Position numbers and translations under genes: made by a program. From the NCBI RefSeq assembly GCF_051622035.1, contig NC_135361.1, positions 22,995,205 to 23,059,204 of the forward strand: 64,000 bases of DNA, given 5' to 3'. A model generated the notes under the pieces. That model was not told the origin of the DNA. It was given only the letters and a program-made list of their open reading frames with translations, and ran no database searches. Source of the DNA: Arctopsyche grandis. Lineage: Eukaryota > Arthropoda > Insecta > Trichoptera > Hydropsychidae. The first letter of the stretch is position 1, and every line of letters starts with the position of its first letter. This document shows positions 2,720-12,521 of this stretch, piece after piece.

Positions 2720-2933
2720 GGGTTTTGTGATTATTCCGCAAAAAGCGATTTCGCGCACGTCACTAAAATCTCGATCACGGAACATCTGGCACCCAAAAAC
2801 TCCATCAATCGAAAGCTTCAAACGCGAAATATTGTACTAACGAGAACTCGAGTGCCAGATATTCCGTATTCGCGATTTTTGTGCCGACGATTGTCGTGCG
2901 CGTGATCGCAATTTACGCAATAATCCGGTTACC
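2720..2933 (+). mobile_element. GGTT...TACC inverted-repeat element, class B
   Basis: The left end is GGGTTTTGTGATTATTCCGC and the right end, read inward, is GGTAACCGGATTATTGCG. The imperfect arms share CACGGAACATCTGGCAC and ACGGAATATCTGGCAC blocks. Flanks GTTTGTAA (2712-2719) and GTTTTTAA (2934-2941) match at 7 of 8 positions and may be an old 8-bp target duplication. No coding capacity. Other members lie at 6523-6711, 7144-7305 and 11508-11717. Confidence 0.6.
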
Positions 2934-5183: not shown

Positions 5184-5450
5184 TAAGTTATATACGTGTA
5201 AGTTTTGACATTAGATAAGGATCTTATCAAAGACCTGGAAAATTTAAATATACGTATAATGAGAATATATTAAAAAATAATAAGGCAAAGTCAAAGGAAA
5301 ATAAATAAAAATAATTACATTAAATTGTGAGAAGCGATCAAGGATATTCTCACCAAAATAAAACATTTAACATCGACAACTGTCAACCAAATGTCAACAC
5401 AGAGAAATGTGGCAACACGTAAAAAGTCGACACGTTTCATATGTAAAATG
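5184..5450. other. Upstream region of the MADF gene
   Basis: AT-rich. No TATA box that I would defend. It ends in GTAAAATG (5443-5450), the first copy of the octamer that separates the three elements to the right. Confidence 0.35.
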
Positions 5451-6220
5451 GGGTAAAGGGACTACTAGTCAAAAGTGAACATGTCACAGGACAACTGGTC
5501 GCTCTAGATCGGTCACTCGTGATCATCCGTCACGCTAAAACTGGTCACGATAAAACTAGTCACACGCTAAAACTGGTCACGAGAAAACTAGTCACACGCT
5601 AAAACTGGTCACGAGAAAACTAGTCACACGCTAAAACTGGTCACGAGAAAACTGGTCACACGTTAAAACTGGTCACGAGAAAATTGGTCACCCGCTAAAA
5701 CTGGTCACGAGAAAACTGGTCACACGCTGAAACTGGTCACGAGAAAACTGGTCACACCCAAAAATTTAAAATTGGTCACACAAACAAAAATATTCTCAAA
5801 TACTTTTTATTTACGAAATTTTTATTATTATCGACTAGAAATATGTTCGAGCCAAAGGCCCTCGTGGCCGTTGTTTGTGGTCTTCGTGAGTTTCAGCGTG
5901 TGACCAGTTTTAGCGGGTGACCAATTTTCTCGTGACCAGTTTTAGCGGGTGACCAATTTTCTCGTGACCAGTTTTAGCGGGTGACCAATTTTCTCGTGAC
6001 CAGTTTTAGCGGGTGACCAATTTTCTCGTGACCAGTTTTAGCGTGTGACCAGTTTTCTCGTGACCAGTTTTAGCGTGTGACCAGTTTTCTCGTGACCAGT
6101 TTTAGCGTGTGACTAGTTTTCTCGTGACCAGTTTTAGCGTGACGGATGATCACGAGTGACCGATCTAGAGCGACCAGTTGTCCTGTGACATGTTCACTTT
6201 TGACTAGTAATCACCGAACC
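5451..6220 (-). mobile_element. Foldback element 1 (class A), 770 bp
   Basis: Two long arms (about 5463-5760 and 5894-6208) are near-perfect reverse complements. Each is built from about seven tandem 32-bp units made of two half-units, AAAACTGGTCACGAG and AAAACTAGTCACACGCT. A loop of about 130 bp lacks an ORF. The outermost 12-13 bp differ between ends: GGGTAAAGGGACT on the left, GGTTCGGTGATT at the right end read inward. Both then continue ACTAGTCAAAAGTG. The octamer GTAAAATG flanks both sides (5443-5450, 6221-6228). It must be mobilised in trans, if at all. Strand is arbitrary: I take the GGTTCGG end as the start. Confidence 0.8.
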
Positions 6221-6228
6221 GTAAAATG

Positions 6229-6514
6229 GGTAATCGGACTACTAGTCATATATGAACCAGTCACAGGACAACCGGTCGCTTTAGATCGGTAACACGTGAT
6301 CACCCGTCACACTAAAACTGGTCACGAGAAAACTTGTCACACCCTAAAATCGGTCAACCAGTTTTCTCGTGATCGATTTTAGGGTGTGACCAGTTTTTAT
6401 GTGTGACCAGTTTTCTCGTGACCAGTTTTAGTGTGACGGGTGATCACGTGTGACCGATATAGAGCGACCGTTTGTTCTGTGACCGGTTCACATTTGACTA
6501 GTAATCACCGAACC
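6229..6514 (-). mobile_element. Foldback element 2 (class A), 286 bp
   Basis: Same ends as element 1 (GGTAATCGGACTACTAGTCA on the left; GGTTCGGTGATTACTAGTCA read inward on the right), but the arms carry only one to two copies of the AAAACTGGTCAC unit. Flanked by GTAAAATG at 6221-6228 and 6515-6522. It has exactly the same length as the opposite-facing copy at 11875-12160. Confidence 0.8.
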
Positions 6515-6522
6515 GTAAAATG

Positions 6523-6711
6523 GTAATTGGATTATTCGTCACATTGCGGTGGTCACAAAGACAATTTTTGTTATTAAAATTGCAAATACGCAATATTTGG
6601 CAGTCAAGTTCTTGTTAGTATGATAGTTATCATTAGTATGGTGGATTTTTCGGCTGCCAGATGTTCCGTTGTTGAGATTTTAGTGACTTTGTAACCAGTA
6701 ATCACCGAACC
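6523..6711 (-). mobile_element. Inverted-repeat element 3 (class B interior)
   Basis: The left end is GTAATTGGATTATTCGTCAC; the right end read inward is GGTTCGGTGATTACTGG. The interior has class B motifs (GGAACATCTGGCAG read from the right, AATATTTGGCAG from the left). Preceded by GTAAAATG and followed by GTATAAAA, a near match. It is the third unit of the head-to-tail array. Confidence 0.65.
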
Positions 6712-6829
6712 GTATAAAATATTTAATTTTATCTTGATATTTGGTTCCAGCTCCAGTCTAATTTAAGCGGTCAACGATTATTGAATTTCTTCCACATCAT
6801 AATAATGTGAGGTTCATGAAAAAAAAAGT

Positions 6830-7015
6830 AAAAAGAACATTGTTCGCACATTGCCATCGCGCGTACTAAAATCGTTGTCACAAAGATCACGAATATGGAA
6901 TATCTGGCACTCGAATTCTCGTTAGTACAATATTTCGCGTATGTGGCTTTCCATTGATGAAGTTTTTGGGTGCCAAATGTTCCGTGGTCGAGATTTTAGC
7001 GTGAGAAACATTACA
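6830..7015. mobile_element. Degenerate class B inverted-repeat element
   Basis: It contains ATCACGAATATGGAATATCTGGCACTCG and, in opposite orientation, the CCAAATGTTCCGTGGTCGAG arm of the class B elements. The outer ends are no longer recognisable, so the limits are approximate. Confidence 0.5.
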
Positions 7016-7143: not shown

Positions 7144-7305
7144 GGTTAGGTGTTTATTCCGCAAAAAGTGATCTCACGCATGTTACTAAAATCTCGATCA
7201 CGGAATATTTGACACACAAAAACTCCATCGTACTAACGATAACTCGAGTACCAGATATTTTAGTGACATACGCGAGATCGCTTTTTGCGGAATAATCCAT
7301 TTATC
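7144..7305 (+). mobile_element. Short class B inverted-repeat element
   Basis: Left end GGTTAGGTGTTTATTCCGC; right end read inward GATAAATGGATTATTCCGC. Both continue CAAAAAG(C/T)GATCTC(A/G)CG, so the arms are well conserved. The flanking octamers (AGCAATTT and GTCAAAAT) do not match. It sits about 200 bp upstream of the JTB start codon, so it may lie in or near that promoter. Confidence 0.6.
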
Positions 7306-11507: not shown

Positions 11508-11717
11508 GGGTTCGGTGATTATTCCGCAAAAAGCGATCTCGCACACGTCACTAAAATCTCGACCACGGAACGTCTGGCACCCAAAAACTCCATCATATTT
11601 ATCACGCGAAATATTGTACTAGTGAGAGATCGAGTGACAGATATTCCGTAGTCGCGATTTTTGCGGCAACAATTGTCGTGCGCGCGCGATCGCAATTTGC
11701 GCAATAATACGTTTACC
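11508..11717 (+). mobile_element. Class B inverted-repeat element
   Basis: Left end GGGTTCGGTGATTATTCCGC; right end read inward GGTAAACGTATTATTGCGC. The interior is clearly the same as 2720-2933 (CACGGAACGTCTGGCAC; GACAGATATTCCG). The sequence right of the element (GTTTTTAAGTGCAAGCGA) is also shared with that copy. This may mean both copies sit in the same host repeat, or that the family extends further. Confidence 0.65.
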
Positions 11718-11866
11718 GTTTTTAAGTGCAAGCGACTTAAATCTTTGCGGTACGAGATTTGAAACAAAAAAATGTCACGTGTTGCACAGAATTTTTTTTT
11801 TTAGTTAGTTAGTGGGACATAATATAAACCTTTGTGCTTTAAATTGTTTTAATTTTTCGAAGTGGT

Positions 11867-12168
11867 ATAAATTAGGTTCGGTGATTACAAGTCAAATGTG
11901 AACCAGTCACAGGACAACCGGTCGCTCTAGATCGGTCACACGTGATTATCCGTCACACTAAAACTGGTAACACCCTAAAACTGGTCACGAGAAAACTGGT
12001 CACACCCTAATATCGGTCAATCAGTTTTCTCGTGACCGATTTTAGGGTGTGACCAGTTTTCTCATGACCAGTTTTAATGTGACGGGTGATCACGTGTGAC
12101 CGATCTAGAGCGACCGGTTGTCCTGTGACTGGTTCACATATGACTAGTAGTCCGTTTACCATAAATTA
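11867..12168 (+). mobile_element. Complete foldback element (class A) with 8-bp target duplication
   Basis: The element proper is 11875-12160 (286 bp). It runs from GGTTCGGTGATTAC to a right end that reads GGTAAACGGACTAC inward, flanked by a perfect duplication ATAAATTA at 11867-11874 and 12161-12168. The arms share GTGAACCAGTCACAGGACAA and CGGTCGCTCTAGATCGG. This copy fixes the true ends of the family and shows that they differ from each other outside the shared arm. Eight-bp duplications are known for hAT and P-type elements, but these ends match neither consensus that I know. Confidence 0.85.
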
Positions 12169-12521
12169 CATCCCACCATGCAGCAAAAGATAAAAAAAAA
12201 GATGGGCCATTTTTGATACCTCTATGCTTCAAAGAGTTAAGTCACCTTCAAGCAAGTTATTAACTCCAACAGAATATTCAACCGGTGGTATTCATTTAGA
12301 CGATTGTGAAAGATTTCAGGAAAATATGGGTGTGTTCTTGTGTAATGAGTGTTTATCGCGATGCAGTTGCCACCTTGGCTGTCTCGGTCAGGTGTTGTTT
12401 GTTGTTTGTTATTGTTATTGTAAGCGGCAATGGATCCGCTCACACTCGGCTCTCACAGGTTTCCTAGAGCGAATCGTCGACATTCATCGACATTTCATTG
12501 AAAATTCATTAATTGCACAAT

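Follow-up and report, generated by a model that had tools for sequence, protein, structure and literature searches.

Three MITEs of two classes were found stacked head-to-tail in the window (the whole stretch of 64,000 nucleotides analysed here), and the array was very probably built by serial insertion ("double insertion"), with element 3 arriving before element 2 and element 2 before element 1. Three independent cut-and-paste insertions of non-autonomous elements, one after another, would account for the whole structure, replication, recombination and a special octamer not being needed. Genome-wide, copies of the same elements repeatedly land within about 30 bp of the ends of other copies, in any orientation.

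Structure of the array

The array spans positions 5443–6720, with every element oriented from left end to right end, and the octamer GTAAAATG precedes each of the three (at 5443, 6221 and 6515 on the forward strand). The original prediction of three head-to-tail inverted-repeat elements at one repeated octamer was thus confirmed, as was the class of each element: A, with the inner repeat CTAGTCA..., for the first two, and a class B interior for the third. Of the lengths proposed at that time, 286 bp was retained, whereas 770 bp, which included one G of the duplication, was refined to 769 bp, and 189 bp to 190 bp. The three elements have related left termini (GGTAANNGGANTA) and an identical right terminus (TAATCACCGAACC); element 1 is predicted to fold as a single long hairpin. 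Their limits were set by the solitary class A copy of the window, where the perfect duplication TAATTTAT directly flanks GGTAAACGG...CACCGAACC, and by the 16 copies scored among the loci of the first genome search.

Within the window the octamer itself is no rarity: counted over both strands it occurs 9 times, with about 4.9 expected. The telling feature is its placement at three element junctions. By chance, the whole genome should hold about 0.09 head-to-tail pairs with a spacer of 7–9 bp and about 2e-6 triples.

Table 1. Positions of the elements, of their target duplications and of further copies in the window; the class B consensus derives from the 42 class B copies collected.
Feature	Position	Strand	Details
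Class B copy B1	2721–2933	-	duplication by eye, about TTAAAAAC/TTACAAAC
Target duplication of element 3 (inferred, 9 bp), outer copy ATGTAAAAT	5441–5449	+	7/9 against 6712–6720
Target duplication of element 1 (9 bp), left copy GTAAAATGG	5443–5451	+	perfect against 6221–6229
Element 1, class A foldback MITE, 769 bp	5452–6220	+	arms 94.2% identical over 328 aligned bases
Subterminal array in the left arm of element 1, about 7.3 copies of a 32-bp unit	5531–5764	+	
Mirror array in the right arm of element 1, about 7.5 copies of a 32-bp unit	5900–6139	-	
Target duplication of element 2 (8 bp), left copy GTAAAATG	6221–6228	+	
Element 2, class A MITE, 286 bp	6229–6514	+	
Target duplication of element 2 (8 bp), right copy GTAAAATG	6515–6522	+	final G (6522) doubles as the opening base of element 3
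Element 3, class B MITE, 190 bp	6522–6711	+	17 of 190 aligned bases (8.9%) differ from the class B consensus
Target duplication of element 3 (inferred), right copy GTATAAAAT	6712–6720	+	7/9 against 5441–5449
Class B copy B2	11509–11717	-	157 bp from the solitary class A copy, target not shared
Solitary class A copy	11875–12160	-	perfect 8-bp duplication TAATTTAT at 11867–11874 and 12161–12168

Target duplications and proposed order of insertion

The target duplications of these elements are 8 or 9 bp long. The first genome search gave 20 loci, in which 16 copies were suitable for scoring; 14 of these carry a duplication of either length: 12 are perfect (seven of 9 bp and five of 8 bp) and two, one of each length, have one mismatch, while the remaining two copies have none. 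In the array the duplications measure 9, 8 and 9 bp for elements 1, 2 and 3, respectively; the octamer does recur at three junctions, as originally claimed, but it is not the unit that was duplicated each time.

Read base by base, the left junction of element 1 passes from GTAAAATGG into GGTAAAGGG, that of element 2 from GTAAAATG into GGTAATCGG and that of element 3 from GTAAAAT into GGTAATTGG, whereas on the right GTAAAATGGG follows element 1 and GTAAAATGG follows element 2. The left junctions carry two, three and four Gs, and given duplications of 8 or 9 bp no indel is needed to explain this difference; bases 6221–6228 together with G6229 constitute the right copy of the duplication of element 1.

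According to the proposed order, element 3 would have inserted first, generating the 9-bp duplication ATGTAAAAT/GTATAAAAT. Element 2 would then have entered GTAAAATG at the left junction of element 3, where seven flank bases and the initial G of element 3 formed the target. Element 1 would finally have entered GTAAAATGG at the left junction of element 2, a target of eight bases plus the initial G of element 2. Each insertion duplicates its target, which leaves the resident with its full end and interrupts nothing; hence the array appears stacked at one octamer. The reverse order would require more changes on the right side. Against the serial reading stands the imperfect duplication of element 3, whose two copies agree at 7 of 9 positions with two A/G differences, a match reached by 0.35% of random 9-mer pairs from the window. 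Divergence from the consensus (0.120/0.124 for element 1, 0.130/0.124 for element 2 and 0.089, against the other consensus, for element 3) did not put the three insertions in order.

Genome-wide census of junctions

Exact end patterns were searched over the 475.67 Mb genome, all counts being therefore lower bounds, and retrieved at least 5,065 right ends (ATCACCGAACC; control 136) and 5,766 left ends (GGTAANNGGANTA; control 686). With a spacer of 0–30 bp, head-to-tail junctions were found 47 times (control 0) where 0.95 were expected by chance, head-to-head junctions at 17 places (0.54 expected) and tail-to-tail junctions at 21 places (0.42 expected); adjacent junctions within one array were counted separately, and the inverted types, matched on both strands, were counted once per place. 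The view that random insertion is inadequate was thus borne out. Head-to-tail junctions fell to 10 at 31–61 bp (one of which re-uses an already counted right end) and to 6 at 70–100 bp. As for nested arrangements, the count covered left ends lying in the same direction 10–40 bp inside a left end; eight were found against 1.08 expected, so this interval is only as warm as the wider neighbourhood.

Spacers of 7–11 bp occur in 33 of the 85 junctions (13.7 if uniform, p=4e-7) and those of 7–9 bp in 18 (8.2 if uniform, p=0.001). The 47:17:21 proportion of head-to-tail, head-to-head and tail-to-tail junctions fits the chance expectation of 42:24:19 (p=0.23), and so does the 8:4:6 proportion at spacers of 7–9 bp (p=0.49). 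A fixed orientation rule was therefore rejected, and the meaning originally given to the shared orientation of the three elements was not supported. A special octamer was rejected as well, GTAAAATG, a common word in the window, being present among the 47 head-to-tail junctions only in the spacers of this array. All but one of these spacers (46 of 47) are distinct, a single one occurring twice (loci L165 and L166). The genome search that had been proposed with the original prediction showed that tandem arrays do recur, including two further head-to-tail arrays of three (L175/L176 and L181/L182).

To describe how targets sit at the junctions, 55 of the 85 loci were read (37 of 47 head-to-tail, 8 of 17 head-to-head and 10 of 21 tail-to-tail), 15 of them chosen for spacers of 7–11 bp; removal of one spacer repeat left 54. 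Spacers of 9 bp or less were present at 19 loci, where a perfect duplication was found on at least one member in 10 cases and a duplication with one mismatch in two (L190 and L225), while seven (L185, L216, L224, L226, L228, L229 and L230) showed no duplication. In seven cases the perfect duplication takes in one or two terminal bases of the neighbour, either at a left end (L175, L217, L219 and the two rows of L183 that represent window elements 1 and 2) or at a right end (L198 and L220), in accordance with the suggestion that the transposase re-targets the junction between an element and its duplication. The spacer coincides with a perfect duplication in L178, L223 and L227, which, like the window junctions (L183), are cases of neighbours sharing one duplicated target. 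At longer spacers the two duplications either overlap in part (L173, L180, L187 and L222) or lie side by side (L163 and L189). In the tentative end-directed reading discussed below, a staggered cut of 8 or 9 bp would slide over the junction, often taking terminal Gs; these would be restored by the duplication, which would allow elements to stack without destroying each other.

Alternative explanations

Head-to-tail order and one repeated spacer are the expected product of tandem duplication, unequal exchange or rolling-circle amplification, and the right end of element 1 is marginally nearer element 2 (0.900) than the separate copy (0.889). We nevertheless regard amplification as highly improbable, since the three elements are unlike in length and sequence, one belongs to the other class, and the left junctions differ by single Gs matching 8- and 9-bp duplications. 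Moreover, the solitary copy, which lies 5.4 kb away, resembles element 2 more closely (93.6% at the left end, 90.7% at the right end) than the neighbouring element 1 does (86.4% and 90.0%), element 1 being about equally close to element 2 and to the solitary copy (88.2% and 88.9%). Together with 46 of 47 distinct head-to-tail spacers, this points to independent events rather than local copying and speaks against the replicative or recombination origin that had been considered originally; inverted pairs, too, occur at the expected frequency. The common termini could also allow a transposase to pair outer ends, so that a pair or trio formed elsewhere moved as a macrotransposon. Indeed, elements 1 and 2 taken as one 1,063-bp unit (row L184, which pairs the left end of element 1 with the right end of element 2) are flanked by the perfect 9-bp duplication GTAAAATGG, hence the duplications alone are compatible with a joint arrival of the two, and the one repeated head-to-tail spacer lies on contig C2 in two copies about 3.3 kb apart on opposite strands. 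Such an en bloc move is very unlikely, however: a perfect duplication flanks element 1 and another flanks element 2 (L183), a joint arrival would require a chance identity between their inner spacer and the outer target, and the 1–2 and 2–3 junctions are unique in the exact-pattern listing of the genome. As for an assembly artefact, foldback DNA is difficult to sequence, but three dissimilar elements require neither a collapse nor a false copy, the contig measures 33.7 Mb and comparable junctions are present on 12 other contigs, which makes this explanation scarcely credible.

What brings serial insertions to the same place is a distinct question. Resident ends, or their AT-rich flank, may attract the incoming complex, and the reading in which the ends actively steer incoming copies of their own transposon system into the adjacent 0–30 bp, in either orientation, is put forward tentatively; if true, a eukaryotic DNA transposon, a Merlin-like one, would here be targeting itself. 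To the possibility that the transposase simply prefers short AT-rich or otherwise favourable DNA, resident ends being irrelevant, we give a chance that comes close to even. It is a rival on the cause of the stacking and not on its occurrence: the first insertion would duplicate a good target, which later copies would reach independently. Insertion-site preference was described as the major mechanism of transposable element dimers by McGurk and Barbash 2018, according to the review PMC12628747. In our data, the AT content around 15 copies was 71% in the flanks within 30 bp, 63% at 100–400 bp and 55% inside the elements, and the target duplications are 74% AT. AAAAT is the commonest 5-mer of the head-to-tail spacers, occurring in 10 of the 46 distinct ones (mean best of 7.5 when the letters of the spacers were shuffled, with 32 of 500 shuffles reaching 10). 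Flank AT richness and the slight AAAAT excess favour some site preference. These preferences are weak, however, compared with an approximately 50-fold excess falling within about 30 bp (47, 10 and 6 per 31 bp), and the targets slide across the junction, including the terminal bases of the resident. The system could be used to test the attraction of a transposase to existing ends against that to merely favourable DNA.

Relation to known systems

Serial double insertion is already known from Drosophila and plants, and the array is a readable example of it: a few bases suffice to read the order of events, and a genome-wide count is provided of stacking without nesting, which for short transposons is a proposed first step to satellite DNA. 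In rice, too, MITEs accumulate beside MITEs, those multimers being formed by other superfamilies with short targets, whereas here duplications of 8 or 9 bp make the order readable. Multimers accounted for 11% of rice MITEs (Jiang and Wessler 2001, as cited in PMC10664404). In Drosophila, McGurk and Barbash 2018 are credited with tracing tandem dimers of transposable elements to double insertion at a duplicated target (PMC12628747, PMC7214746); there as here, repeated insertion into one duplicated target leads to tandem copies sharing the duplication. Compared with these dimers as the reviews describe them, the junctions reported here mix two classes, very different lengths and all orientations, and their sliding targets include terminal bases of the resident. 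The SaTar MULE arrays of guayule and rice, which PMC5907723 describes as linear and uninterrupted and as targeting microsatellites, likewise consist of different non-autonomous elements, none interrupting another. Microsatellite targeting of the SaTar type was rejected for our elements, the spacers being short and, in 46 of the 47 head-to-tail cases, distinct.

Superfamily and autonomous partner

The two MITE classes have common termini and were probably moved by a single transposase, probably a Merlin-like one judging from 5'-GG ends and 8- or 9-bp duplications. The termini start with 5'-GG (GGTAANNGG/GGTTCGG) as in Merlin, described in PMC8101967 with 5'-GG ends, duplications of 8 or 9 bp and inverted repeats within 24–462 bp. 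At the loci read, the ends of the present elements did not enclose a DDE_Tnp_IS1595 gene. The genome holds at least 41 matches to the Merlin-type transposase domain PF12762 and at least 60 to the MULE-type PF10551. No autonomous copy with these ends was present at the 16 of the 41 PF12762 matches (L200–L214 and L231) that were read with about 1.5 kb on each side.

Duplications of 8–11 bp and long inverted repeats, often with subterminal repeats, characterise Mutator or foldback elements, and the present elements show these features as well. Aedes MULEs have 8–9 bp duplications, many with subterminal repeats, and Muta1 of Aedes is described with long inverted repeats and subterminal tandem repeats variable in number (PMC5225508), while Tetris of Drosophila virilis has 8–10 bp duplications (PMC4079207). 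Our elements share the duplication size with both Muta1 and Tetris, and with Muta1 also the long inverted repeats with subterminal tandem repeats. Their paired ends were absent from the single MULE locus read (L215), one of the 60 PF10551 matches. In hAT elements the target duplication is 8 bp. The same length is reported for the P element (PMC1562414). Both were disfavoured, 7 of the 16 scored copies having a perfect 9-bp duplication and one more a 9-bp duplication with one mismatch.

A Merlin-derived foldback family, here termed family M, has ends GGTAAAAGTCGGAATTC, with 249 end matches in the genome, and carries a PF12762 transposase fragment (L203–L205 and L207–L214); by eye, its 8-bp duplications are TACATACA in L211 and GGAATATG in L210. 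Its GGTAAA start, as a link to the array elements, is suggestive only. On contig C3 (5002232–5002892) successive family M ends are spaced by 219, 219 and 206 bp, and on C2 a 3,838-bp step is found twice (5143598, 5147436 and 5151274), which suggests tandem amplification. In L214, positions 1169–1944 contain a class B-like element with a right end on both sides and a Merlin-derived foldback mid-element. Two Merlin-type ORFs of 400 and 424 aa (L200 and L202; C6:7927711–7935952) share a strand, are separated by about 5 kb and are embedded in DNA that is 81–89% identical.

Other observations

The window corresponds to C7:22995205–23059204 of the genome searched; no Rfam match at the gathering threshold and, by tRNA scan, no tRNA was found in it. 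When relatives were sought outside, three of four pattern searches of viral contigs and one phage search gave no matches; a short pattern matched 19 stretches in viral contigs and at least 120 in genome contigs, and blastn at E 1e-3 retrieved no match between the window elements and those 139 stretches. Five of ten window ORFs were matched in the Pfam scan, to reverse transcriptase, Exo_endo_phos_2, DUF1759, Baculo_FP_2nd and a Tc3-type HTH, DUF1759 being a domain seen in BEL-type elements.

Fragments related to class B lie directly right of the array (6845–6999 and 7144–7297), and an inverted pair is formed by 7154–7195 and 7254–7295. Outside their left ends, B1 and B2, both of class B, have the same sequence for at least 18 bp (GTTTTTAAGTGCAAGCGA, forward strand; 2934–2951 and 11718–11735) and may lie in, or prefer, a repeated target. 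A short repeat, 90.6% identical and apparently belonging to another repeat family, is found beside B1 (2955–2986) and near the solitary class A copy (12239–12270). Elsewhere, two right ends face each other 898 bp apart (L142/L143; C1:1462237–1463134) with no left end recognised between them, possibly a right-right foldback or two truncated copies. Finally, 21 of the 42 collected class B copies, whose median distance from the consensus is 2.0%, are exactly 204 bp long; this subfamily looks young, and a 204-bp member occurs in 14 of the 54 junction rows (L163, L193 and L223 being class B examples).
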